Shown here: positions 1 through 56,341 of the stretch, piece by piece | Layout: every line of letters starts with the position of its first letter | Position numbering within the stretch: position 1 is the stretch's first letter | Assembly: GCA_023374045.1 (NCBI GenBank) | Contig: CM041778.1 | Coordinates: 365,712,831-365,776,830, forward strand | Reading direction: 5' to 3' | Source of the DNA: Limonium bicolor | Lineage: Eukaryota; Streptophyta; Magnoliopsida; Caryophyllales; Plumbaginaceae | Length of the DNA: 64,000 bases | Notes under the pieces: model-generated | What the model was told of the DNA's origin: nothing | The model's input: only the letters and a program-made list of their open reading frames with translations | The model's database searches: none | Program-made: the position numbers and the translations under genes

Positions 1-335
1 TGATCTCCTTGTCGAATAGCTCTGCGAGCTTCGCCACCTTCCAGGTGTCCTTCATCGGTATGAATCGGGCAACCTTGGTGAGGCGATCGACTACTACCCA
101 GATCATGTTGAGTCCTCCCCTAGCAGGTGGGAGTCCAACAACAAAATCCATGGAGATGTCGTGAATTTCCACTCCGGAATGGGCATGGATTGCACCATTC
201 CTCCCGGTCTTCGGTGCTCAAACTTCACCTTCTGGCATGTGAGACACCTCAGAACATACTCAGTCACGTCTGACTTCATCCTGACCACCAGAAGTACCTC
301 TTCATGTCTTTGTACATTTTAGAGGCTCCCGGATG
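1..335 (-). pseudogene. Integrase N-terminal part (zinc-binding and start of catalytic core)
   Basis: The HHCC zinc-binding region is visible: a His-containing stretch (HVHPGASKMYKDMKRYFWW) near 330-270, followed by [11 protein letters not shown] with the CxxC pair. The catalytic core begins with [10 protein letters not shown], holding the first acidic residue of the DDE triad, and continues with [16 protein letters not shown] and LAELFDKEI before the window ends. At least two frameshifts lie here: one close to the FWWSG stretch and one just after the SMDF motif. The rest of the integrase and any chromodomain lie beyond position 1. Confidence 0.85.
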
Positions 336-379: not shown

Positions 380-1720
380 TTAGCTCAGCATTGCTTCGGG
401 GACGCATAATCTGCCATTCAAACGGATCAGACCATCTTCATGCAGTTTGAAGTCGTACTTTCGGCGCTCGAAGGTACCATCTGTAATTTTCTGTCTGATC
501 TCTGTGAAGTAAGGGTCGCTCAACTGAGCGTCTCGCACCTCGTCAACCAAGCTAGAAGAAGCGAGTAGCGAATGGAGCGAGTGTGCTCGACGACTCAGGG
601 CGTCGGCTACTACGTTTGCCTTCCCTTCTTTATACTGGAGGTTGATGTCGTAATCCGAGAGGAACTCCATCCACCTCCTCTGCCTTAGGTTCAATTCTTT
701 CTGGGTGAATACGTACTGTAAACTTTTGTGGTCGGAGTAGATGGTGATGCTTACCCCATAGAGATAGTGTCGCCATATCTTCAAGGCGAAGACAATGGCT
801 CCTAACTCTAGATCATGTGTCGGGTAATTCTCCTCATGCTTTTTCAGCTGGCGAGAAGCATAGGCTACTACCTTGCCATGCTGCATGAGTACGCATCCCA
901 TGCCCTTGCCCGATGCATCACAATACACCTCAAATCCCTCTGTGCCCTCTGGAAGTGTGAGAATTGGCGCTGAGGTCAATGAGTCTTTCAATTTCTGGAA
1001 GGATACTCGCACTCCTTTGTCCATACAAAGGGTGCATCTTTCTTCATCAATGACGTCATGGGCTTAGCGACTTTTGAGAAGTCCTTTACAAACCTCCGGT
1101 AATAACCGGCTAAACCAAGAAAGCTCCGGATGTCGGTAACAGTCTTAGGTCTAGGCCATGATCGCACTGCTTCAATTTTGGATGGATCTACTGATATACC
1201 CGCGCTCGAGATGACATGACCGAGGAATGATACCTGATCTAGCCAGAACTCGCATTTGGAGAACTTCGCATACAGCTGGTTCTCGCGCAGTGTCTCAAGT
1301 ACTTTTCTCAAATGGTTTTCATGCTCTTCTGGTGACTTCGAATACACAAGATGTCGTCAATGAATACTACTACTGAAGTGTCCAGCTGATCACTGAATAA
1401 CCGATTCATTAGGTCCATGAATTTGGCTGGTGCATTAGACAAACCGAATGGCATCACCGTGAATTCGTAGTGGCCATATCTTGTTCGGAATGCTGTTTTC
1501 TGAATGTCTTGCTCTTTGATAGCAATTTGGTGGTAACCGGATCGGAGATCAATCTTAGAAAAGACGGATGCTCCCTTCAACTGATCGAACAGGTCGTCGA
1601 TGCGTGGCAATGGGTACTTATTCTTTACAGTGACCGCATTCAATTCGCGGTAGTCGATGCAGAGGCGGAGACTACCGTCCTTCTTCTTCACGAAGAGGAC
1701 CGGTGCTCCCCAGGGTGATA
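380..1720 (-). pseudogene. Reverse transcriptase and RNase H of element A
   Basis: RT motifs run from [18 protein letters not shown] through [26 protein letters not shown] and [13 protein letters not shown] to VVFIDDIL, the YxDD-type catalytic box. A frameshift directly after that box (about 1310-1350) moves the frame to the connection region ([22 protein letters not shown]). RNase H follows after another frame change near 1020. It has its acidic residues in [34 protein letters not shown] and [11 protein letters not shown]. The frame changes again near 383 where the linker to integrase begins. The family assignment is certain; the copy is dead. Confidence 0.93.
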
Positions 1721-1752
1721 CGCTCGGGCGTATAAACCCTTTGTCGAGAAGA

Positions 1753-2480
1753 TCATGTAGCTGTTCTTGAGTTCTGCCATTTCTGCCGGTGCCATACGGT
1801 ATGGTGCCCTAGCATGGGACCAGTACCCGGTACAAGATCGATTTCAAATTCTACCGCCCTCTGTGGTGGCATACCAGGTAGCTCTTTCGGAAATACATCA
1901 GGGAATTCTGAGACTACTGCTACCTCGTCACTGAACTCTGGATCTCTCTCCAGGTCTTGCACGTGACATAAATACACTTCATGCCCTTTTTTGAGCTCCC
2001 GATACATTGCCATGGCGGAGATGACTGTAGTTGAAGGCTCTCTCGGTCTCTGGCGGTATGAAACAGTGACCCCAGATGGACTCTTGAGCAGCAATCGGTG
2101 CTCGGCGCATAGGATTCTCCCCTTGTGCCGCTCCAACCAGTTCATTCCAATAATTAAGTCGAATCCCAATCCGTTGAATTCAATGAAGGAAATGGGAAAC
2201 GCTTCACCTTTGATTTGAATGGTGGCTGATTTGTAATACTTGGTACATTGTACCCGCTCCTTCGATGGGAGAGTAACCAAGAAGTTCGGTAGCTCATCCG
2301 CATCTAGCCCCAACTTCTTCGCAAGAGATGGCGATATGAAGGTGTGAGAGGCGCCGGAGTCGAATAATACTGAGGCTTCGATGCCGTTTACTGGGAATGT
2401 TCCCGTTAGAATGGTGCCGCTCTTGCCGGCTTGTTCTTCGGTGAGGATGCTCAGGTTACCTTCGGTACCGAGTCCACAAC
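1753..2480 (-). pseudogene. Aspartic protease and linker to RT of element A
   Basis: The retropepsin active site is seen as VLFDSGASHTFIS at about 2350-2395, followed by LGLDADELP, the flap region and FDLIIGMNWLERH, the usual second conserved block of plant gypsy proteases. The frame runs into FPDVFPKELPGMPP, the conserved linker before RT, then shifts near 1800. The upstream end of this frame is not a start codon: it begins right at a CAATAG acceptor-like site at 2481. This fits translation as part of a spliced Gag-Pro-Pol reading frame. Confidence 0.88.
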
Positions 2481-2547
2481 CTATTGATTCATGAGATTAT
2501 AAGTAAAGATGGTGGAACGCAAGTGGAATTTAATAACCAACACTGCT

Positions 2548-2553
2548 TTTATT
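2548..2553 (-). promoter_or_regulatory. Possible poly(A) signal AATAAA after the AlkB frame
   Basis: AATAAA on the minus strand lies about 70 bases after the AlkB stop and before the protease-side acceptor at 2481. It could end an AlkB-containing transcript, but hexamers of this kind are common in AT-rich DNA. Confidence 0.3.
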
Positions 2554-2622
2554 GAATAACCAACCATCATACATACTGTGTCTCTAATACACGTTACTAC
2601 TGGATTACATGCTACTACAAGA

Positions 2623-3377
2623 TTAATACTTTCTAAAGGTAAGGTTCAGGCGTCCTGGTATCATGTGTGTGGCATTGATTATTGCCGGTGGTGCCGTATT
2701 CAACTTGATCTTCTGGATCCCGTGATACAGCAACCTTGATTTTCCACCCATGATTAGAACATCTCCTGATCTCAATACCAATTTTTCTGCGAGGTCCACA
2801 CGCTTCCGCTCGCTATACAAAATACGGCGTCATCACCAATGGACCAAGACACTACGGGCACTCCTAGTTCAAGAGATTCCGCTGTCTCGTCCTTGTCTTG
2901 GTGTAAGCCAAGTCGTCCTTCTTTCTCATAGAAGTTGACGATACAGATCTGCTTCAAGTGCAGGGATTGGTTCATCTTCACATTGTTGTGCAATTTCTAC
3001 AGCTTGTGTGACAAGCGTTTGGAATTCTGGGGGTATTGCTGGAGGTGTTGCTCCGTCTCCTGCTCGCGTTGTTTGGTATGTCTTGGTATAAGGGTTCCAG
3101 TCCTTTCCCAAGCACATCATTTTCAGCTTCATTGTAGCTCCACCGGGGAATTCGGGTGTATAAAATCCTCCTGGACCCGTTCCTAACTCGTTGCATCGTC
3201 GGATGATTGAAATTTGTGCTTCGGGTGTCAGGTATCCTTTTAATAAGATCATACCTGGGCGGATGACCTGACACTGTTCGTTGTTGAAGTGGTGATTGGC
3301 GATGTCGGTCTCTTCATGAGGTGAGTTTGAAGGTATTGGGTAACAGATATGGAATTTCCCTAAGGTGGTAAATTCAT
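2623..3377 (-). pseudogene. AlkB-type 2OG-Fe(II) dioxygenase frame inside element A
   Basis: About 250 codons match the AlkB family of Fe(II)/2-oxoglutarate dioxygenases, which remove alkyl groups from nucleic-acid bases. Visible blocks in order are GMILLKGYLTPEAQ and GPGGFYTPEF near the N-terminus, KMMCLGKDWNP, IVNFYEKEGRLGLHQDKDE with the HxD iron ligands, GVPVVSWSIGDDAVF, LRSGDVLIMGGKSRLLYHGI with the distal His, and GRLNLTFRKY with the RxNxTxR 2-oxoglutarate-binding pattern before a stop at 2623. Two single-base frame changes are seen, near 2945-2990 and near 2815-2825. The frame is open upstream of the GMILL block to about 3377, where a CTAG acceptor-like site precedes it. The blocks look closest to plant ALKBH1-type proteins, but the subfamily is not certain. 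It lies on the same strand as gag and pol, so it is probably part of the element and not a host gene. Confidence 0.85.
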
Positions 3378-3895
3378 CTAGAATGTTCTAGGCTTACTAA
3401 TTCATTTCATGCTCAATACATACTTCCATGTTACTTACTCATGCTCAATTTCATACTTCAAGTACTTACGCATTCATGCTTTCATTCATACAATTACTTT
3501 AATACTTAGTCATGCTCTTCAAGGATTAAAGGTTACAGTGGTTACCTGGGCCGGACTTAGTCCCGGTCCCATCACGGTCTATGATGTGTAAGGCCGGCTG
3601 CCTCTGCGGTGCGCCCTTCTGCGGACCTCGGGACCCCTGTCCCTGTGAGTGCTGGGCATGAGCATCGCCAGATGCAACCTCCTTGCCCTCACGCTGCTTG
3701 TAGCCCTGGTAGTTGCCCTTGGGCTTAGAATTCTCCGGGCATGCATTGGCACGGTGGCCCGGTTTTGGCAAGTGAAGCAGCGGATCTCCCTTCCTTGGCA
3801 ATCTGTGCCGGGATGATCCTTGTTGCAGTTACGGCAGATGTAGCTGCGGCCATCGATTGGTTCTTTCCTTGGCCAAATCCAGAACCTATAGCTTT

Positions 3896-3975
3896 CAAGT
3901 TAGCAAGGTTTGGTATACTTACAATACTCTATATACACAATTCACAAGTGTACTAATTCGGTTTCGGTTTCTTAC
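3896..3975 (-). other. Intron-like gap 2 in gag (80 bp)
   Basis: The minus strand reads CTACAGG-G then GTAAGAAACC at 3975 and ends GAAAGCTATAG at 3896. The frame before it ends at a TAA inside the donor sequence. After removal the frame enters the zinc-knuckle region correctly. It is AT-rich compared with the flanking gag. Confidence 0.55.
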
Positions 3976-4250: not shown

Positions 4251-4337
4251 CTGAATTACTTAGGCATTAGGTTACATTTACATACGGGAATACTAATTCA
4301 CATTACTCATGGCTTTTTAAGGGTTCAACTTGTTTAC
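4251..4337 (-). other. Intron-like gap 1 in gag (87 bp)
   Basis: The minus strand reads CCTTCAG then GTAAAC at 4337 and ends GTAATTCAG at 4251, followed by GAGTGTTACC. The gap carries an in-frame stop shortly after the donor, AT-rich content and a pyrimidine-poor end. Joining the flanks gives LQ-ECYHAA, continuous with the gag family pattern. It is phase 0. Confidence 0.6.
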
Positions 4338-5185
4338 CTGAAGGGAGGTAAACCGAGTGAAGCCCATGCCATACCGGAGTCGATGGCTCAATCCGCCGTA
4401 GAAGCGGTCGACCAAGACTTGGCCGGTATACCCAAGGTCGGGTAGAAGTCGGAGAAGAGAGGTGAAGGTGCGGTAATATTCATCAACCGTCATCTTCTCG
4501 GTCATTTTAGTGCATCGAGCTCAAGCCTTTTCTTGGTCTTGACATGCTCGGGGTAGTACTTAGATCGGAGAAGAGAGGTGAATGCTTCCCATCCGAAAGC
4601 AGGGTCAGCTATGTGCTCGGCCTTAACGAGCTTCCACCAGTCCATAGCCGCGTCTTTGAGGTAGTACGCAGCTATCCTCACTCGAACTCCAGCGGGAGTC
4701 TCAAGTGTCTCGAAGGCCGTCTCCATCTCGGAGAGGTAGGCCTCGAGCTTGGCGGGGTCGCTCTCGCCTCTAAAACAAGCAGGTCGAAGGTCGGCGACAG
4801 CTTTTACCCAGTTCGTTTCTCGGGGATGAGGTGGGTCGGGCTGCTGCTGCTGTGTTTGCTGTGTTTGCTGTACAGCCGTTATTACTTGCGGTAGCATCTG
4901 CGCTACCGTGGCGGCGACGATCTCAGCTATCGTCTGCGCGCCCGGTCCATCAGATGTCTCTCCTCTAGGTCGGCCTCGACCGTCCTGACATCTGAACAAG
5001 TGTGGATTACATTAGATGTTGTGATACTATGACCTCATGGTCTTCATTCAAACAATGGTATCGTCTTTGCAGACGTTAGTGGTATCCGTTATTGCTAACG
5101 GTAGTTCCTAGTTAGGTTTCTAAATATCCGTCTTAAGACGGTTGAAATCCTAACTCGGTAATCACTACTCTTAAGAGTCTAATCA

Positions 5186-5212
5186 TCAGAGCGATACTTC
5201 GCTCTGATACCA
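5186..5212 (-). promoter_or_regulatory. Primer-binding site of element A, within a hairpin
   Basis: On the minus strand TGGTATCAGAGCG begins five bases after the LTR end. This is the common plant primer site matching the 3' end of initiator tRNA-Met. TCAGAGCG is repeated inverted after a 6-base loop, so most of the primer site can fold into an 8-bp stem (5186-5207). The same stem is seen in element D. Confidence 0.85.
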
Positions 5213-5217
5213 CTTTT

Positions 5218-8200
5218 TGTAACACCCCAACCGCTAATCCTTCCATTATCCTCTAATCCTTCCCATAATTACCTTACTCGCAGCGGAATACTTACCTACT
5301 CCCGGCGGGTGATACAATGCCGTTAACCATCCAAGGTTAACAAGGCTACTACTACTTACCGTATCGGTCTGACGATTAGAATGAATACATACATACTACT
5401 TACTTTACAATACCAATACTTACTTACATTGATTACCGAGTATCTAAGTATACAATTACATTCCATGTCTACTTCCCAAAAATGAAGAGTTTATACTCTC
5501 CTTCTATCCAATCAAGATTCAATATCCAAAAAGGTGTACCACATGGTACACCGGCTACCAAAAGCTCTAGCCGTGTACAACTCGGTACACTATTCCAATT
5601 CCTACTAACTACTCCAAAAAGAACATGCTGCCCTTACTCTACCTTCACGCCTCGCGGGTACCTGTGGAGTAAAAACATTCCCCCTAGGGGGTCAGCTTAC
5701 GCTGCATATGATAACCGCATACCCCGCGTACTAGCGAGGGTACGCCAACTATTTGGTCGAGTACATGCGGTTCGTTTCATTCATACATACATACATGCTT
5801 TATACAATACAATACAATACATTCATTTTACCAAGCATACATACATACAATACATACAAGGAATACAATACAAGTCATTCATTCACACTTACCATACTCA
5901 CCGCATCACGGAGATACAATTCTCCAATACATACAAGGTCTTGTTAGCCTTATTACACACCGGGTTAATCGGGTGTTCAATACTTTTACTCCGGGTCAAT
6001 GACTTACAATAGTCAAGACCCATACAAATACAATACATTTCTTACATACTTTACTTCCAGTTAAGTCGGTATGACCTCCGGGCAGGGAATACTACTTCCC
6101 ACCACCGGGCTTTAGGGTGGCCCACTAATCCAGGATGCTACCCATACAAAGGGAATTGGTCCAAGGAAAAGATCATAGCCAGGATTCGGTTCCAACCTCT
6201 TGTGGTTCCTTATCCTCACGCGTGGCCGAAACTATATCGGGCTTCTACTCATTCCATTTTACTCATTACTCATGTTAGGAGTTAGGTTGTTAGGAATTAG
6301 TAGAAGTCCATACTTACTTCCATACATACATACATACACAAGTACTCATACTTACACATACACTTCATTTCCATTCATTCATTTCATGAATTATACAAAC
6401 TAAATGTTCAAGAGCATAAACAAGAACAATATAGTTCAAACACATATAAGTGCAATATAAATCCGATTCATGCATTTATCTTGTTGGTGATCACATAAGC
6501 ACACAAATCGGGGTAACCAAGTTAGGATACAGGGCATGAGGAAATCATACCGTTCACCGTCGAACACGTCTACCGGTTCCTTGGAGATCAACTATTTGAT
6601 TCCTATACATACATGAAGTAGTATGATCAATGATCTATTATTGATCTACTTACTCCTTCATTGATATTTCAATGTATACTTACTACTCTACTATTACTTT
6701 CTACTTGGTTATAAAACCATTCTTTCTTTTACTTCATAAACTTGTTTTCTTACAAAATTACTTACTTCCTTACCATTATTACTTCATCAATGGTGTATTA
6801 CTACATATATATGCATATAGGTATATAGGCATATATATATGTATATATGATTACTATAGTCATATAATTAAAACATTTTTTTTTGTAAGTGTTTGGGCCG
6901 TCCGACCCACCGTCCGACCCAACCCTGGGTCGGACCATTCCAGTAGGTTTTCGTCCTCTGAAATTACTCCCGTCCGACCCAGCACTATTCCGTCCGACCC
7001 ATACCCTCTGGGTCGGACCATTCCAGAAAGTTTCGATTTGTCATCCAAGTCATGTCCGACCCACGTCCGACCCAACCTCTGGGTCGGACGAAGTCAGAAA
7101 CTTCGATGGAGAAAATTTTCGCCCGTCCGACCCACGTCCGACTCACGGCCCTGGGTCGGACCATTCCAGAAAGATTTCTGTCGATTATCAAGGCCCGTCC
7201 GACCCACGTCCGACTCACGGCTCTGGGTCGGACGGTTCCAGAAAGACCGTGTTTTCTCAAGGCCCGTCCGACCCACGTCCGACTCACGGCTCTGGGTCGG
7301 ACGGTTCCAGAAAGTTTGATTCTCGTTATTTAAGCCATGTCCGACCCACGTCCGATCCAGACGCTGGGTCGGACGGTTCCAGAACATTGCTACAGATTTA
7401 TTTTTCTTTCCCCAATTTCACCCATTGCTTCCCTACTCTTCCTATCCTAACATGATTTAGCACTATTAACACTCTAAATCACCTTAATTCATCCACCAAA
7501 CTTACTACTCAATCCTTACATTTACTTACACATTTTCCTCATTACATTTTCAACACTTATACTAGTTTCCTCACACTTATGCTACAGATTTTGTTTCTTC
7601 TTTCTATGCTACAGATTTTTACCTTAACCTTACACTTCAATACTCCTTCAACTAATGCTACTCCTAGCATCCAAAATGCATTATCTTACACTCTAGTTTC
7701 CTTCCATTTACAAACTCATTTCCAATCTGTTACAACTACTAAAGCACTCCATTAAACTCTCTAACTACTTCCTCTTTTACACAAGCTAAGTCCTCTCATT
7801 TCTACACAAATTTGACATGGTTCCCCTATATTCTTACATTCTCCACACACTATTTCAGCTCACAATTCACATTCTCACAACCTGTTACACAATACATTAT
7901 ACTCACATTCAACACTACTACAACATATAAAATTCCTGCACACATACACACACTACCCAAGGTTTTCCCAAGTTTATAACTTCATTTAAAACTTCAAAAC
8001 TGTTTCATACCATTCCCATTATACTTCATACTACATTACTCATTATCATACACATTACTTTTTTATCCCAAAAACTGTTACAACACAATATACAAACTAA
8101 CTCAAGGTAAGGGTATTTACCTTGTCTTGTTAGTTTTTCTTTCTTTCCTTTCCTCTTCTTCTTTCTTCTCCTTTTCTCTTGTTCTCGGTTTCAATGGGTT

Positions 8201-9247
8201 TCACACACACACAATGCTACAGCCCATAATACACCAATACTTAGCATTCATTTTATACTAACCCTAGAATTTAGTTTTAGGGTTTAGAAAAAGTGTTACC
8301 TTCCAATGAGTAGATGAGTTCTTGACTAGTGAAAGAACAAGATTTCTAGCCCAACAAAAGAGCCAAAATCGGCTGGAACAAAGAAGGCCAAGAGTTCAAA
8401 AAGAAAATTCTTAAAATGCCAATGAGAGCTAGAAACAATGGATTTTCGAACTTCTTTTTACCTCAAGATGAAGAGGAGGTGAAGGTGCTTCTAATGGTGG
8501 ACTTGAATCTTCAAATGGTGAACACTCAAAAATCGAAAATGAGCTTTTGGATTTTTGAAAGGAGGAAAGTGTTCTCCTTTGCAAGGGGATTACAATGGTA
8601 CTAATTTTGTATTTTGGAGCAAGATTAGTGGGTTAACAAGATGAGAGAAGGAGGGAGTTGTGTGAGTTTTCCTTTCTCCATGGTGTCGCAGGTAGAAGAA
8701 AAAGAGAAAGAGAGAATAGAGAAGGAGGGGACGTGAGAGAGAAGGGGAGTAGGAGAGAGACTTTTTTCTTTTCTTTCTTGTCTTTATTACTTGGTTTGTC
8801 TTTAGCACATAAAGAAATAAAGAGAGGGGGAGACTAGCTGGCCGGCTCACATCACACACACACACATTTAATTTTTATTTGCAAAGTGGACACACTAACT
8901 TTGTTTATTTATCTCTTACCCCACAACTTACCGGTTGTTACAGTTTTCACTAACCGGTACCCGTTTCCGGAATTTTCTCGTTTAATTAATTTTATTGGTT
9001 CTAAAGCTTCACTAATATTTATTAGTGACTATTAGTTGACCAAAATTGTTACGAGTCTATTTGACCCGCTTAAAGTCGCGTTTTCCCGGTTTCCTCGAAA
9101 ACGCGCTTTAAGGTTCGTTTATGCTTTTAACCCATTTTAAAGGTCCGTTTCTTCGGGATTTGTTCCCTAGTATTTATTTTAGTGTAATTAAGCTTTAAAA
9201 ATATAATTAGCCTAATTAATCACTGTTTTTAATTACGGGGTATTTCA
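5218..9247 (-). repeat. 5' LTR of element A (4.03 kb)
   Basis: On the minus strand the LTR starts TGAAATACCCCG at 9247 and ends GGGGTGTTACA at 5218, next to the primer-binding site. These imperfect inverted ends resemble those of the LTR at 50435-56245. The body is AT-rich with microsatellite-like CATA and ATAC stretches (5780-5900, 6320-6360), a tandem array (6896-7386) and a CT-rich stretch near 8110-8200. Open frames in it are low-complexity and look non-coding. The matching 3' LTR lies left of the window, so no target-site duplication can be checked. Confidence 0.85.
6896..7386. repeat. Array of about seven GTCCGACCCA/TGGGTCGGAC hairpin units
   Basis: Seven units of about 65-85 bp each hold CGTCCGACCCA once or twice, then CTGGGTCGGAC, then a TTCCAGAAAG-like box and a variable spacer. 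The two copies of the CG-rich decamer are inverted, so each unit can form a stem. The units at 7195-7263 and 7264-7338 are nearly identical in their first 50 bases. The reading frames across the array are products of the repeat. Confidence 0.9.
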
Positions 9248-14885: not shown

Positions 14886-17800
14886 TCATTTCATATTTTC
14901 AACCCAAACACCCTCATCGTGGTCTGATCGTGCGTAAAACAAATCATTTTCGGTAACATCAATCAAATCCGGTAATCCAGTAGGAAACAAGGGTGTTTCC
15001 TCAACCGTTTCATTGTCATTGTTATCCTCATTTTCATTTTCGATTACAACCAGCCTTCTTTCTGGAAGAATAACAGACCATCTGTAGTCTTTCGGATCCT
15101 CAACGTACCACACTTGTTCTCAATCTTGTCCCAGAACAAATTGATCATCCTTATAACCGACACGTAAAAGATCAACCAAGGTAAGCCCTCCATCATTTTG
15201 GTATCCACGTCGGTTGTCCACCCACTTGCATCGGAACAACGAAAGGAATCAATGTGTAGTCTAGTTCCCAAATGTCCTCAATGACACCATAATACCAACT
15301 AGAGTTCCTAACTGGTTGAGATCGGTTACTGCTGTGGTACTCAGTGGCTGCAGCTTAAATTTTTACTCCACTATTCTGGTTTATCGATTTGGCATGTTGG
15401 CGTGCAGTGTAGTATGTATACCCACTAATATCATACCCCTCAAATGATGTAATATTAGTTTCAGGTCCGGCTGCCAAAGGTCTCTTCACTTACAGCTTCA
15501 GGATCTGATGATGATAATGTCAACACATGATCTTTGACATTGGATAAAAACTCGGTTTTGTTCCTTTGTCTGCCAAATGCGGTCTTTCATAGGACTTTGA
15601 TGCCTTAACTCAACCATATGGGTTTCAAAATAAGGTTCAACAACCTCAAGGTGTTATAAGACAAACAATGTGCTTGATGAATAAGATGACGCAGAACTTG
15701 CACAATCATTCTGCCAATGACACCTTTACCCTTAAACCTACCGTAGTGTCATGGTTTTGTGATACCAATTGACTCTGCCTCACTCAAATAATCGGTCACA
15801 AATTCTGTGACTTCCTCAGTCACTGTTGCTTCAACAATACTCCCCTCTGGTCGATACCTATTCTTCATTCTACTTTTCAGAATACCCATGTACCGTTCAA
15901 AATGGTACACGTACCATAAGTATAACCGGACCACAGAATTGTATCTCTCGAACGATGTGCACAATTAGATGCACCATTATGTCAATGAAAGATGGTGGAA
16001 AATACATCTCAAGTTGACATAATGTGACAACAATTTCACGTTGTAGATCATCTAGAGAGGTTACGTCAATTGCCTTGGAGCAATCAACGTTGAAAAAGAA
16101 ACATAACCAAGTTAAAGCATTTCTGACATCATATGGCAGTATTCCTCGGATTGCAACTGGAAGAAATGTAACATTAGTATATGATAATCGTGAGATTTCA
16201 TGCCTAAAAGTTTCAAATCCTTCATCGATACAATGTTCTTCCAGTTTGAAGAGTACCCAGACGGTACTTTTACCGAGTGCAGACATTTGCAGAAACTAAT
16301 CTTTTCAGCCTTTGAGAGCGTGTAGCATGCAGGAGGTAGGTATATTCGTTTCCCATTCTCTTGTGGGTGTAACTCCTTTCGTATACCCATGGTTTGCATG
16401 TCCTTTCTAACTTTCAATTCGTCGTCTTTTGTTTTACCGGGTATATTGAGTAAAGTCCCACTCACTGCCTCACCAACGTTCTTCACAATGTGCATGATGT
16501 CTAAGCAGTGTCTCATAGGAAGATGACGCCAATAAGGTAGATCCCAAAAGATATAACACTTTTTTCAAATGTTCTTTGCCGGTTTGATGTGTTTCCAAAT
16601 ACATTTTCAATGTCCTTATCCTTTTCGTACACTTCCTTAGAGCTCAAAGGTAGACGGGCCACACGAGTTTCGGCCTGACCATTGAACAACTTTCTCTTTG
16701 TTACTCAATAAGGGTGATCTTTGGGCAGAAGACGTTGATGACACATATAAACATTCTTTCCACAATGTTTTGAACAGTTTGAACAAGTGTCTTCCTCGCA
16801 TATGGGACATGCAAATGTTCCTTTCACCGTGTAACCGAACAAGTTCCCATATGCAGGGAATTCAGTGACAGTACATAACAACAAAGCCTTGAGCGAAAAT
16901 TTTCTCTTGCATAAGCATCATATACCACGGTCCTCTCATTCCACAATAGCTTCAGATCATCAATCAAAGGGAAAGATACACATCAATGTTATTACCTGGC
17001 TGCTTGGGACCAGATATCAGGAGCGATAACATGATGTACTTTCGTTTCATACACAACCACGAGGGCAAATTGTAGATCACTAGCAGAACAGGCCATGTAC
17101 TGTGTTGACTACTAAACGTGCTGTATGGGTTCATTCCATCAGTACATAACCCTAAGCCTCATATTCCTATCTTCATGTCCGGAATGTTCTTTGTACCGTC
17201 TCTTGATGTTTCTCCACTAAGGCCCATCTGCTGGATGTCTTAGTTTCTCATCACTTTTTCTGCCCCTCTATGTGCCACTGTAAGTTCTTTGCATCTTTCG
17301 GATTGGCAAACAACCTTTTGAACCTAGGTATGATCGGTAAATACCACAAAAGTTTAGCCGGGGACTTTTTTTTAGGGGATGAGGAGTCACCATCCTTGAG
17401 CTTGTATTGAGACAATGAGCATTTCGGACCGTTGTCTAGGTGTTCGTAATCACCCCTACACAACACACAATTGTTGGGACATGCATGTATCTTCTTATAC
17501 TCAATCCCCATTGGACACATCCATTTCTTCGCCTCATAAGTGGTGGTAGGGAGACCGTTCCCATCTGGAAGCATATCATGAACCAACTCGAGAAATGCCG
17601 TGAAACTCTTGTCACTCCATCCATATCTCCCCTTCAAGTTGAACAAATTTAGAACAACCGTCAATTTTGTGTACTTAATGCACGTAGGGTATAAGGCTGT
17701 CTTGGACGCATCCAACAACCTTTGATACTCCTCTGGTCTATCGATGAAATTGTCCTCGACATTATCAAGCATATCATCCATTTGATCATCGTGGTAAGTC

Positions 17801-18177
17801 GTCTAACTGTCAACATTGACTCCTGAATTAGTCAGGAATTGATCCGACTCGTTGGTAGTATCGAATGTCTACTCGGTTCTTAAGTGACACCGATCATGAC
17901 TGTAGGATGTTAAAGCATTATCTTCAACAGATTCTCCATGGAAAGTCCATCTTCTGTAATGTGGCATGAAACCGCGGGTCTTCAGATGGAATTGTATGAC
18001 GTCGATGCTTGAATATTTTCTGACCACACCACAATCAACAAAGACATGGAATTCATGGAATTTTCACCGCCTTTGTCCTGTCCTTGTGTTTCACTGCAGC
18101 TTTGCAAAAGTGCAAAGCTCTTTCAGCATCTTGTCAAAGTGTTCCCCTCGATCACCATACATCCAGTCACGCTCCAT
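14886..18177 (-). pseudogene. TNPD/TNP2 transposase of the CACTA element
   Basis: The start at 18177 opens the Transpos_assoc domain (ERDWMYGDRGEHFDK, then RKYSSIDVIQFHLKTRGFMP near 18010-17960). TNP2 follows with RYGWSDKSFTAFLELVHDML and CPMGIEYKKIHACPNNCVLC (17640-17450) and LLWYLPIIPRFKRLFA (17355-17310). The middle (17250-16520) is broken by stops. RHCLDIMHIVKNVGEAVSGT, YLPPACYTLSKAEKISFC and MKDLKLLGMKSHDYHILM continue TNP2 (16516-16200). The DUF4218-type part has LPVAIRGILPYDVR, FHFER-like and ILKSRMKNRYRPEGSI (about 16160-15840). The C-terminus is DUF4216-like (YVEDPKDYRWSVILPE) and ends SDHDEGVWVENMK at 14886. The domain order is the usual one; multiple frame changes make it a pseudogene. 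Confidence 0.88.
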
Positions 18178-32325: not shown

Positions 32326-33443
32326 GGGTAGGAGTGCAATGAGTGTTTTAATCACAACTGTTCTAATAAATTAAAGTAGATCCAATTACCAATATTTAAG
32401 TCTTTATATAAGGCATTTGTTTGACCTTTATAGTATCCGCCTCCAGTTTTTTGAGCTCTACCCAAACGCAAAATTAATTAACTTGCCCCTTGTATTTGGC
32501 GCTCTACCCAAACGCAAAATTAATGAACTTGTATTCATATAGCGATTTAATTCTGTGCGGAGAAGGTAGTTCCCACCCAAAGAGAACAGAAGTGAACATG
32601 AAATGTGGTGATACTGATACATGACATTTATTAAATGTAGTGTCCATTTTCGTCGATAAATTACAAAAAGCCCATAAGCTAAGAAGGCACGTTAAGTTAA
32701 TTAATTAATATTAAGCGTGTGACAGGACACCCGAACCGGTGGTTGATTGTAGATTATAAGCTATTTATAATTCTTAAGATGACAAACACTACCTGCCACC
32801 AAAAATGAATTAAATACACAATATAAAGACTACATTTCAATTTCAAAGTAAATATATATTATAAGATCGCATTATTCTCACCACCAAATTGGTATGACTT
32901 AATATCAAATGTTGGGAAAATACCCAAAAAAGACTGGCAGATTTCCATACGCTACTAGCTACTTTTGTTCTGTTGTCACCCAACCTCGTCATTGCCCAAT
33001 TTTGGACCACCCACCACACTATAGACACTGCGCATTATATCTCAGTTGTTGTGTCGCCTCGAATCCATTATCACACATCCCCGCTATTTGATTTCAAATG
33101 ATCGACTTTTAGGCTCTATTCTAATTTCAAGCCACGTTCATGCCTCATAAGTTATAAGTGTGCCTTTAGGCGTCAGCCTTTTTATCTGGTCCATCATATA
33201 TTATACGCGTGTTATTATTACTTTATAGCATGTTTAGACCGGGGTCAAAAGAATTTAATATCTTATTCATACTACTGTTTGGAAAAAAATGGTTAAACTA
33301 AGTTAACGTTCACCTTGTATTGTTTAAAGGAATATTGGATACAAGCAGCCTATGAAGAAAATCAAACTGGGTTTTGATAGTTTGTCTCGTGTTAGGAATA
33401 TCACGTGCAATGGAAAGGGCGTAGCAACAGCAAATAGGTAAGA
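32326..33443. other. Unassigned stretch with one short direct repeat
   Basis: GCTCTACCCAAACGCAAAAT occurs twice about 50 bases apart (near 32455 and 32502). Otherwise I see no gene or element. Confidence 0.35.
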
Positions 33444-34695
33444 TTGTCTTTACATGTATGTTTTTTTATAATTAGGGGCACAAGGCCAGTGCGCCACAAG
33501 GGCAGAATACCAAGAATTACAAAACATAAAAGGCTCCTGGAAGAAAAACTGAAAATCATAATTGGTGATGGTAAGACAATCCTTTTCTGGCATGATCAAT
33601 GGAGTCATGCAGGCACACTTCATCTCTCCTTCCCAAGATTATACCAGGTTAGTCTTCAACAGCAAAATACAGTAGCGCAAATGGGTAATTGGACAGAAAA
33701 CTCTTGGAACTGGACCTTTCTTTGGCGGAGACCTTTATTTGCATATGAGGAAGAAATGCTCTCCTCTCTAATTAGCAGCCTTGGCGTGACACCTACATCT
33801 CCTAGTCAACCAGATGATAGCACGTGGGCTTCTTCAGGTAAATACTCTATTTCAAAAGATGTCACCTCCTCGCTGGATGCTAGTAGCAGTAACCCAATTG
33901 GCGAATTAAATGCCAATGATCTGAATCGAATATGGCAAGGTTTATGCGCACCTAGAATTTCTATGACTCTGTGGTTCACTTTAGTCAAACGATTACTGAC
34001 GCGTGACATCCTCTTTGAGCGCGATATCATTCCTCTTGGTCAAAGCTACTGCCCATGGTGTAATCTTGCAATGGAAAGTGTTGATCATGTTATTTTTCTA
34101 TGTCATCGGATCAAGAAAGTTTGGTTGAATCTGTTCAAATGGTGGAATCTGCCCTTCTCCCTCAGTGACTCAGTCACGAACATTTATCAGGAATGGTTCG
34201 CCTACCCACTCCCGAAAAGGCCACAACGTATTTGGCGTTCCACATTCTGCTATGGCGTATACTTCATATGGATGCAACGTAATAACGTAATATTCAGAGC
34301 TGAAACCATGGACACAGATCGAATCTCTTTGCAAGTTAAGCTCGGGGTCTGGCAATGGACAAAGGTTTGGTGGAAGGGCTTCCCCCTTGATTGTAATCTT
34401 TTCATTAACGCTTCCTCCCTTAAATGCTTATTGACATAGCCTCTTGGCTAATCTCACTGCTGTACTCTCTTGTGATCGGAAGCTTGTACCTAAGTTAAAC
34501 TCTGCTGTACTTTGCAATTCTTTAGCAGAAGCTTAGGTTGTAATTTGAATGTGGAGGGTACTCTTTTTCCCCCTTAGTTTTATCCCACTGGGTTTTGCTT
34601 AGGGGGTTTTAATGAGGCCCATCTATCCCATTCACCTGGTTTACCAGGCTCTTTATTTAATAAAATGGCTCACGCCCAAATTATCTAAAAAAATA
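33444..34695 (+). mobile_element. 5'-truncated L1-type LINE, 3' end
   Basis: An open frame to the stop at 34437-34439 holds the C-terminal part of a plant LINE ORF2. IGDGKTILFWHDQWSHAG is the typical block after RT. The zf-RVT domain follows with CAPRISMTLWFTLVKRLLTR, CPWCNLAMESVDHVIFLC (Cys-Cys-His-Cys) and a Trp-rich tail (VWLNLFKWW, VYFIWMQRNNVIF). The 3' UTR contains TTTTAATGAGGCCC, common in plant LINEs, and ends in an A-rich tail near 34685-34697. The annotated start codon is not biological because the 5' part is missing. The true 5' junction is near 33460; no target duplication was identified. Confidence 0.88.
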
Positions 34696-53400: not shown

Positions 53401-56245
53401 TAATTACAGAGAGCAAAATGAGTCCTTGGCATAATTATAATACAATATAGTGTGAGAGTTAATATTATGAATTTGGTGGTTGAATAATAAGTGTTTAGAA
53501 GTCAAAATAACAATTTATAAGTTTTGGGGTATTTGGTAATTTTTCGAAAGATTGGTGTACAACCGAGAAATATATAAGTTTATGGGTATATTAATGTATT
53601 AAGTATGAATTTAGACTACGGTCAAAGTGTTGACCGAAAACTTGAGTGAGTTAATTGATGATTATGTGACATGAAATATTAAGTTTATAAAAGTTTTGGG
53701 GTGATTATGTAATTTATAAGAGTTTAAATATAAAACCAAATTTTATATGGGGCAAAATCATAATTTATGGAAATATAATGCCCACTTGTTATTAAGGAAA
53801 TTAAATATTAAAACTATAATTTATAAGTGAATATATAATTTATATAATGTTTTTGGGTTAAATGTAATTATAAAAAGTTGTTTGTCAAAACGAGAGGTTG
53901 AGGGCTGATTTGGTAATTTATAAAAGTTATAGTGTTCAAATAATAAATACCGAATTTATAAAGGTGGTTTAGTGAATTAATTAATTAAGAAATAAAACTA
54001 TGCATTATATGTATTTTGAGTATAATGTAAAGTTTAAGAAATAAATGTGGTTATAATATAATAACCGAAAAGTATGTTGTATTTATGGGATTAAAAATAT
54101 TTGTAGGTCCTACATGGATATTTAGGAAATATAGAAAATGAATTATGATTTAAGGATTTATGAAATTAAAACTATATGAATACAAGTACAAGTAATTCAC
54201 TTGTAAAAGAAATAACATTATTTGGAGTTAGTTTGTAATTAACAAAGGTATGAGAGAATTATGCCCATGCGTAACGTGTAATTATAATTGGGATTTATTA
54301 AGTTGTTATGTCATTTAGACAATTATATATAAGTGTCATAAATAATACATGTGTATGAAAAATATATATATTAGATTTTCAAGAAAATCAAAAGGAAATG
54401 AATATAAGGAATTATGGATTAAGACTATGGCCATATAGTTATAAGGAATTTAATTGTAACCAATATATTAATTATGGTTAAGTGGAGAATAACAAAGAAT
54501 TATAAGAATATTATGTCCATGTGTGACATATAAATATTGCGGAAATTATGAAGATGTCAATTAGACAATTGTAAAACATGATGTAACATAAATGGTACAT
54601 GAATATATAGTTATATACATTAAAGGATTTTAAAATAAATCAAAAGAAATAACAAATGAGTTATATATTAAGTCATAAGGTGATTAAAAGGAATTACCAC
54701 ACAATATAAGTTTATAAATTAGGATTACATGTTTTGGAAATATATAAATGCCTTAATCAAATAATAAGGCTAAGTGGTTAAAGAAACTACTTAAGTATAA
54801 AGAAATAAACCTCACATGAAATAACGAATACGAAATCGTTTCAAGAACCAATAAAATTATTATACGAGAGTTACATAAATTAACACTCTCAGTTAATCCT
54901 ATTCTAGGACTTTGTTTGACCAGACGTTGACCGGGAACTAAACAAGTACAGTCTACGGTGAACGGTATGGAATTCTTGCAGTCTGCTTTCTACCGGATTA
55001 CACCGGCTTGTGTGCTATCTGTTGTTTGAAATAACGACCAAGATAATTGTTGTAAAATGTTGTATTACCCGTGTGCACTGTTGTATTATTTTATGCGTGA
55101 ATGATGCTAACAACAACGTGTATGTCCCACGCATACAACACTACATTACCAGTGGATTAAATACCTGCGCTTTATTATACCGAGAACTTGAACTCAAGTC
55201 TCTCACTAACTTCACTTTATAACAAACGTCATTGTCCTAAACGTGACAACTGAAAATACACATTGTGTTCTTGTTAACATCCTGGAGTGACATCTAATAA
55301 TAAATTATACTACGAGAACGAGGAGCCCAGTTGGAGCTGGCCATGCATGCTACCGGAGCTGTACCTGTCACAGGTCGTCTCCTATACAATTTACGTCGCG
55401 ACGGGAGTTTTGGGTGCACTATGTCACTCACCGGCTGCGTACCGGAACAGTTCAAGTTGGGAGGAAGACTTTATTCCTCTCGAGGGTTCGATTCCCACCT
55501 CTTTTAAGTGCAGGAGTTAGCTACGTTATCTCTGAGGGACTAATTACCCACCTACTTGTACGAGAGTCCCATCTCGTCTAAGGGTTTATCATACCCGACC
55601 ATCTTACTCCACGAAGGAGTTTAACGAGGTCACTATACCTCCACTGCTGTGAGGTACTCTTATATACATGTTAGTCCCATTGTGAGGATCTGACTACTGG
55701 TGAATAATTACAGGACATCTAACTTGAACTTCTGTAGTCTTGTTCTGTGTGACATTGTTATCCTTGTATGGATGCTTGTTATGATTATGTTATGATGCTT
55801 ATTTACAGCTTTATAAAAATGACTTGCATGTATTCGACAAAATAGTTGGTGTGGCCCAGTAGCTTGTGGGCTGCACGTTTTTCATACCGGCTAATTATTT
55901 TGCTGAGCCATTTCATGGCTAAACAATTCCAGGTACCTGAAGAATGAAGAGATTACCCGACCGAGTGTAGGCGGGGTAGAATTAAGACAGGGGACTGTTA
56001 TCACCGGAATCATTTTACAAGTACTGTACCTTTATTATTGTCTTTTGTTGTTTTTAGAGGTTTGTATTCAGCGCTCAGACCGTAGCATTTGTAAGTTATT
56101 TTGGAGTTAGCCTTGTTAGTCACATGGGTGACTAGCGGCGCTGTAGCACCACCCGTTGTTATGTATATATTTTCCACTGCATTTCCCGTTATCTTTGGGA
56201 GCTATCATTGTACAGGTTATTGGATTTCGGGTTGGGGGTGTTACA
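50435..56245 (+). repeat. 5' LTR of chromovirus-like element D (5.8 kb)
   Basis: It starts TGAAATACCCCTAACATTC and ends GGGGGTGTTACA, followed by a primer site. These are the same end signatures as element A on the opposite strand. The interior is AT-rich and non-coding. CTACGGTGAACGGTATGG near 54955 is shared with the other long LTRs. No nested element was recognised inside, so the unusual length may be genuine. Confidence 0.8.
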
Positions 56246-56341
56246 AAAGTGGTATCAGAGCGTAGTTGCGCTCTGAGATCTGAATACAACCGAAATTAAC
56301 CTTGGGTTACAGGTGTGTGTGCTAGAACAGTGAGGAGTAGA
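56246..56341 (+). other. Primer-binding site and truncated leader of element D
   Basis: TGGTATCAGAGCG begins at 56250, four bases after the LTR. TCAGAGCG (56255-56262) pairs with CGCTCTGA (56269-56276) around a 6-base loop, as in element A. The leader is cut at 56341 by element C; the rest of D is not in the window. Confidence 0.85.

Follow-up and report, generated by a model that had tools for sequence, protein, structure and literature searches.

A Ty3/gypsy retrotransposon of Limonium bicolor with an ALKBH1-type AlkB domain as a putative alternative exon of gag

The DNA analyzed here, a stretch of 64,000 nucleotides from the plant Limonium bicolor (assembly GCA_023374045.1, contig CM041778.1, positions 365,712,831-365,776,830) that is called the window throughout, holds on its minus strand a full-length Ty3/gypsy retrotransposon, which runs from position 9247 down beyond position 1. 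Between its gag and protease regions lies a domain of the AlkB family, whose members remove methyl groups from nucleic acids. An earlier note, made from the letters of the window, had drawn attention to this domain and its place in the element; it had not recognized AlkB as an alternative exon.

A Ty3/gypsy element with an AlkB exon

The long terminal repeat (LTR) pair, target duplication, primer-binding site (PBS), gag, protease, reverse transcriptase (RT), RNase H and integrase of the element are found in Ty3/gypsy order. The neighboring stretch L041 contains the rest of the integrase, with a C-terminal SH3 domain identified by Pfam, together with a weak chromodomain match and the 3' LTR, and CTAGT flanks both element ends. 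The features, read from the 5' LTR towards the integrase, are the following.

5218..9247, minus strand: 5' LTR with TG...CA ends; its 3' partner lies in L041, and the element is flanked on either side by a CTAGT duplication
5199..5212, minus strand: primer-binding motif TGGTATCAGAGCGA, adjoining the 5' LTR
4338..5011, minus strand: gag exon 1 (capsid part), frame-broken in the window copy, with Retrotrans_gag in both frames
4251..4337, minus strand: intron 1, GT-AG, placed by alignment; exactly missing in L025, L028, L029, L032, L036, L038 and L039
3976..4250, minus strand: gag exon 2, between introns 1 and 2
3886..3975, minus strand: intron 2, GT-AG, with window ends predicted by alignment; missing in L029, L032, L036 and L038
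3546..3885, minus strand: gag exon 3, which encodes CCHC zinc knuckles and is followed directly by the splice donor common to both forms of intron 3 (GT in 21 of 21 copies)
3360..3545, minus strand: intron 3, short form (gag to AlkB), predicted for the window copy; acceptor AG in 21 of 21
2623..3359, minus strand: AlkB exon, an ALKBH1-type 2OG-Fe(II) dioxygenase, stop codon included; two frame breaks
2481..3545, minus strand: intron 3, long form (gag to protease, the whole of AlkB removed), predicted; acceptor AG in 21 of 21
1753..2480, minus strand: protease (Pfam RVP_2, E 6.4e-28)
988..1808, minus strand: reverse transcriptase in two overlapping frames, RVT_1 in both
380..1063, minus strand: RNase H (Pfam RT_RNaseH)
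1..322, minus strand: start of the integrase, whose open frames run on outside the window into L041

The Pfam profile PF13532 (2OG-FeII_Oxy_2) is matched by three overlapping minus-strand frames, 3387-2926 (E 8.3e-8), 2996-2772 (E 3.1e-11) and 2829-2623 (E 7.3e-14), which cover positions 1-89, 96-137 and 137-194 of its 194 positions, and the motifs HQD, YHGI and RLNLTFR are present. Upstream, Pfam places Retrotrans_gag in 5011-4502 and 4520-4317; downstream, and likewise on the minus strand, it finds protease, RT and RNase H. The AlkB assignment and the order gag-AlkB-protease on one strand, both made in the earlier note, are thereby borne out, as are the two frameshifts that it described, since both breaks are present in the assembly used. 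Its AlkB span, 2623..3377, keeps its end, which is the stop codon at 2623, and most likely needs a new start at 3359, the splice acceptor. The frame-shifted stretch FCIASGSVWTSQ (window 2772-2938) is common to the window copy and copy L050; because of this sharing, the damage was probably inherited through transposition, and a frame-broken AlkB copy thus seems to have been passed on.

The label "chromovirus-like" is backed by one weak chromodomain match in L041 (E 3e-4, 21.1 bits, below the cut-off of 25.1), with none reported for L042; the element is likely a chromovirus. The exact PBS motif TGGTATCAGAGC lies beside the LTR in 18 of 20 sampled copies, and we take it to be of the tRNA-iMet type. 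The zinc-knuckle match by Pfam is weak in L011. Divergence between the LTRs (Kimura two-parameter) is 0.0278 for the window element and 0.0095 for L011; at an assumed rate of 1.3e-8 per site and year, the window element would be about 1.1 million years old. Its LTR pair shows 64 gap runs, 35 of them of a single base, and this many gaps might indicate assembly errors.

AlkB carriage, relatives and selection across the genome

A PF13532 search of the whole 2.92-Gb genome yielded 150 scored places from 38,325 loose candidates; all 150 listed places span profile positions 1-194, and one is listed with an internal stop. Twenty copies spread through these best 150 matches were fetched with about 10 kb each; their gag was examined by Pfam in L011 and L015, as was that of the window. 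AlkB lies between gag and protease in 20 of 20. In every one it has an open frame of 211-263 amino acids (aa), preceded by the LTR-PBS end and followed on the same strand by protease-RT frames. The openness of these copies is biased, since they were drawn from the 150 best AlkB matches. As a cross-check, a search with the window protease scored 150 of 63,009 candidates, from which 16 were taken by list place (about every tenth). All 16 carry AlkB just upstream of protease (E 2e-78 or better), and in six of them it is open over at least 245 aa; one of these six, L050, is open only via the same shifted stretch as the window copy. In L009 and L011 the domain matches PF13532 over its full length, 1-194 of 194 (E 9.8e-50 and 2.9e-49), and the HxD...H iron ligands and RxxxxxR, seen as HQD, YHG and RxxxxxR, are found in all 26 open copies. 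Carriage of AlkB by the retroelement, as proposed in the earlier note, is thereby supported at the same place in both samples, and the domain belongs to the element and is not a local insertion.

The best solved relative of the element AlkB is a rice AlkB-family chain, 5xeg (236 bits), which we take to be OsALKBH1, followed by E. coli AlkB (86 bits) and human ALKBH1 (about 45 bits); ALKBH5 is not among the 21 solved-structure matches. The nearest database proteins, P0001-P0004, share 57-70% identity with it, and the next nearest are plant proteins, many of them named ALKBH1C/D-like, at about 42-54%. As judged from these best matches and solved relatives, the element AlkB is of the plant ALKBH1 type. 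A midpoint-rooted tree of seven of the 20 element copies and 62 of 120 listed proteins (P0001-P0004 and 58 other plant proteins) unites the element copies and P0001-P0004 in one clade (Shimodaira-Hasegawa-like approximate likelihood ratio test, SH-aLRT, 100), apart from the 58 plant proteins. The plant ALKBH1 proteins (ALKBH1C/D-like; 5xeg) are thus the closest ordinary relatives, with about 50% identity and the same catalytic motifs; the element clade is separate from them and lacks their long N-terminal part. Near-identity to a host gene, which the earlier note had named as a sign of a one-off insertion, is answered for the nearest named plant proteins, which are about 50% identical, the host's own ALKBH1 lying outside the comparison. 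One further candidate for an element protein, P0121 from Artemisia annua (478 aa), was set aside, as its AlkB half appears twice within what reads as one gene model. A scan of viral_contigs with the AlkB alignment gave 392 pattern matches and no relative.

The AlkB-bearing copies fall into three subfamilies: A (L009 and L015), B (the remaining 18 of the first 20) and C (that of the window). Between subfamilies, the Nei-Gojobori ratio of nonsynonymous to synonymous substitution rates (dN/dS) of AlkB is 0.12 for A-B (36 pairs), 0.11 for A-C (12 pairs) and 0.19 for B-C (108 pairs), ratios that are only approximate because dS exceeds 1 and is near saturation. As such, the purifying selection for which the earlier note had suggested looking (dN/dS below 1) is found. 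Within B the ratio is 0.21 (153 pairs; 0.19 in another alignment) and within C 0.52 (15 pairs), higher values that agree with the drift expected of recent copies. For the same copies set against one reference, gag gives mostly 0.1-0.3 and protease-RT mostly 0.06-0.2, with L016 (gag 0.61) and L010 (protease-RT 0.52, with 22 stops) as outliers; for L009, L015 and the window, dS is too high for a ratio in both regions.

Two joins from one gag donor

The aligned copies reveal three GT-AG introns on the coding strand, of which introns 1 and 2 interrupt gag. Intron 3 has one donor, at the end of gag exon 3, and two candidate acceptors, which precede AlkB and protease respectively; either join leaves the gag frame intact. 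All 21 aligned copies (the window, 18 copies of B and two of A) retain GT at the donor and AG at each acceptor. In L025 and L028, which belong to the 20 AlkB copies, intron 1 is precisely absent. The gag-protease join occurs at 14 genome places with at most three mismatches, five of them exact, and a reversed-pattern control gave none. Twelve of these 14 places were fetched, and 12 of 12 lack AlkB at the exact join; four have also lost introns 1 and 2, one has lost intron 1 and seven keep both. The gag-AlkB join, defined with the acceptor that aligns across all three subfamilies, is found at 13 genome places, three of them exact, again with none for the reversed-pattern control. In one of them, L059, a single frame of 163 aa connects the gag zinc knuckles with AlkB through the join, and introns 1 and 2 remain. 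Because both joins occur as reverse-transcribed spliced copies in the genome, the transcript appears to be spliced in two ways, and AlkB is, as read from these copies, an alternative exon: the same gag donor is joined to AlkB in some transcripts and, with AlkB skipped, to protease in others. Since the genome preserves copies of both splice products, the regulation of splicing becomes readable here without RNA data. In subfamilies A and B the conserved IC[YF]P stretch is not preceded by a start codon, which makes fusion to Gag the natural route to translation of the whole domain.

Several observations weigh against this reading, some on the junctions and some on the need for AlkB. The AlkB acceptor that was guessed first is found at no place in the genome, and a protein search across the gag-AlkB join gave 13 candidates, none significant. 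Of the 13 gag-AlkB places, L059 was read beyond the match, the other 12 being matches of 32 bases alone; as the join probes came from subfamily B, the joins are seen for B and its kin and predicted for subfamily C, that of the window. Three subfamily C copies (L054, L056 and L057) have a methionine near the start of the AlkB exon, so that a separate AlkB start is possible in this subfamily. Constraint is weaker between the acceptor and the domain, where between-subfamily ratios of nonsynonymous to synonymous proportions (pN/pS) are 0.47-0.53 against 0.23-0.28 elsewhere (calculated without L013, L016, L024 and rows lacking the stretch), as would be expected of a linker. On a tree of the protease region with 12 AlkB-less rows (12 of the 14 gag-protease places) and 21 AlkB rows, AlkB presence needs at least four changes, three of them forced by supported branches, which suggests that AlkB-less copies arose at least three to four times. 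Six of them (L034, L035, L036, L037, L038 and L040) form one supported group, in which two have lost introns 1 and 2 and four keep them; to judge from the tree, this group has multiplied without AlkB. Frame-broken AlkB also spreads, to judge from the shift that the window copy and L050 have in common. Because of these two kinds of spread, AlkB is not needed in every copy; AlkB-less and broken copies would fit a supply of AlkB in trans from other copies.

Two side observations concern the arrangement of copies. Four AlkB places follow in a row with a spacing of about 10.1 kb at G000:C1:497439466-497470353, and two gag-AlkB joins lie about 10.1 kb apart at G000:C2:386603598/386613667. The element appears, from these spacings, to form tandem arrays.

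Precedents, proposed function and rival explanations

An AlkB-bearing plant retrotransposon is already known from orchids; the Limonium element differs from it in the AlkB class, its position and its mode of expression. Alvarado-Marchena et al. (2022) described an ALKBH5-like ORF2 (open reading frame 2) in giant Tat/Ogre-like Phalaenopsis elements, whose product demethylates N6-methyladenosine (m6A) in vitro, and a screen of 121 genomes found the domain in LTR consensus sequences only of two Phalaenopsis species (PMC9289625). The orchid element Gypsy_Pa_2799 (paALKBH5-like) is likewise a plant Ty3/gypsy element with an AlkB-family domain conserved in many copies and a proposed anti-methylation role; as described there, it is a 25-kb Tat/Ogre-like element with the ALKBH5-like domain in a separate ORF2, gag and pol in one ORF and a tRNA-Arg-type PBS (PMC9289625). 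The Limonium element, in contrast, is not of this type: its domain is ALKBH1-type, lies between gag and protease and is spliced in frame with gag as an alternative exon, and its PBS motif is of the iMet type. In plant elements, extra ORFs are reported to lie more often between pol and the 3' LTR (PMC7264820). Partial splicing of transcripts that decides which gag-pol proteins are made is shared with Ogre and EVADE, for which the accessible text reports no enzyme exon (PMC6317226, PMC12786077); here, an alternative acceptor brings in AlkB, and gag has two more introns. The literature searched, outside which most subscription journals lie, yielded no description of an ALKBH1-type gene in such an element, nor of Gag-AlkB made by splicing. 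Plant RNA viruses, at the level of description, offer a further likeness as RNA-based replicators with an AlkB of their own. Their AlkB domains sit in the replicase polyprotein, whereas the domain here is joined to Gag.

The interpretation that we favor, and hold to be somewhat probable, is that this Ty3/gypsy element carries an ALKBH1-type alternative exon, that splicing yields either Gag-AlkB or Gag-Pol, and that Gag-AlkB demethylates the element's own RNA or single-stranded cDNA within particles. Its observed basis comprises the position and conservation of the domain, purifying selection, the catalytic motifs and the presence of both junctions as reverse-transcribed copies; what it adds by inference is that the fusion is translated and packaged with Gag, that the enzyme is active, and which base and strand it acts on. 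Specifically, removal of introns 1 and 2 would give a Gag with zinc knuckles; joining of the third donor to AlkB would produce a Gag-AlkB that ends at the AlkB stop, and joining to protease would produce Gag-Pol, while a transcript with intron 3 unspliced would encode a Gag ending a few codons into that intron. Gag-AlkB would be expected to enter particles, beside RNA and cDNA, and the fusion route predicts the location of the enzyme, next to the nucleic-acid-binding knuckles of Gag. There, the packaged AlkB could strip methyl groups from element RNA or single-stranded cDNA, with minus-strand cDNA, being single-stranded, as a candidate substrate. Single-stranded cDNA is favored because plant ALKBH1 is reported to demethylate N6-methyladenine (6mA), particularly on single-stranded DNA (PMC12973404). 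The suggestion of the earlier note that methyl marks are removed from RNA or reverse-transcription intermediates thus remains plausible from the domain and its context. A more specific version, offered tentatively as somewhat less than probable, holds that a chromovirus captured a plant ALKBH1 into its particle independently of the orchid elements, that the choice of acceptor sets the dose of Gag-AlkB to Gag-Pol, and that during reverse transcription the enzyme demethylates genomic RNA as well as single-stranded cDNA and so offsets alkylation damage or adenine methylation by the host. If true, an LTR element would carry a nucleic-acid repair enzyme in its particles, and plant LTR retrotransposons would have captured an AlkB a second time, from another class than in orchids, which would suggest that base methylation is a recurrent pressure on such elements. 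The cellular role of plant ALKBH1-class enzymes is unsettled, and a selfish element that keeps one provides an evolutionary handle on it.

It is conceivable, if rather unlikely, that AlkB acts in the cell and not in the particle, erasing m6A from element transcripts, which would thereby escape m6A-guided silencing or trapping in stress granules. The orchid element with its m6A activity in vitro (PMC9289625) is a precedent, host ALKBH9B is reported to free ONSEN RNA from stress granules (PMC12786077), and m6A on retrotransposon RNA has been linked to heterochromatin formation in Arabidopsis (PMC12973404); the element AlkB, however, is ALKBH1-type and not ALKBH5-type, and the spliced form, by fusing AlkB to Gag, points to the particle. 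A mainly regulatory role, in which Gag-AlkB is mainly a Gag that ends before Pol and sets the ratio of Gag to Gag-Pol, with the enzyme secondary, strikes us as improbable. It would draw on the stop of AlkB before protease, on the donor common to this and the gag-pol join and on EVADE, which is reported to make a short Gag by alternative splicing (PMC12786077). A mere stop, however, needs no domain of 240 aa with catalytic motifs intact in 26 of 26 open copies and under purifying selection, and Gag already stops in the unspliced intron 3.

Two further explanations concern origin rather than function. If the AlkB-less form were older and AlkB with its flanks had been inserted later, the exact joins would be the original gag-protease sequence and not products of splicing, and three AlkB-less copies (L030, L033 and L039) do branch between the subfamilies in the protease-region tree. 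Yet AlkB is present on both sides of these three (in A, C and B), the tree needs the changes given above, some copies have lost introns 1 and 2 with equal precision, and gag-AlkB joins exist as well; an AlkB-less ancestral state is therefore rejected, and this history is very improbable. A one-off insertion, or a processed host ALKBH copy in a dead element, could be read from the window copy by itself, which is frame-broken and whose AlkB frames overlap, so that an intron could not fit between them. Across the family this reading is excluded, with a negligible chance of being correct: AlkB has an unchanged position in both samples (20 of 20 and 16 of 16 copies), which also disposes of the case, foreseen in the earlier note, that all other copies lack AlkB, and the subfamilies differ at dS above 1.

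Among minor observations, a tandem array of units of about 72 bp with inverted GTCCGACCCA/TGGGTCGGAC boxes lies inside the 5' LTR (window 6892-7403), and a similar array is present in the 3' LTR of L041. Intron 3 contains, before the AlkB exon, a short tandem repeat (3407-3473; unit of about 32 bp, 2.1 copies). Self-comparison found no second copy of the element within the window; positions 56222-56276 show an inverted 86% match to the LTR/PBS edge of the element (5186-5240) and are, on this resemblance, part of another LTR element in opposite orientation. By eye, minus-strand frames at 16115-16564 and 17254-17802 look like a CACTA-type (En/Spm) transposase, and an open frame of 333 aa on the plus strand (33438-34436) resembles the end of a LINE reverse transcriptase.
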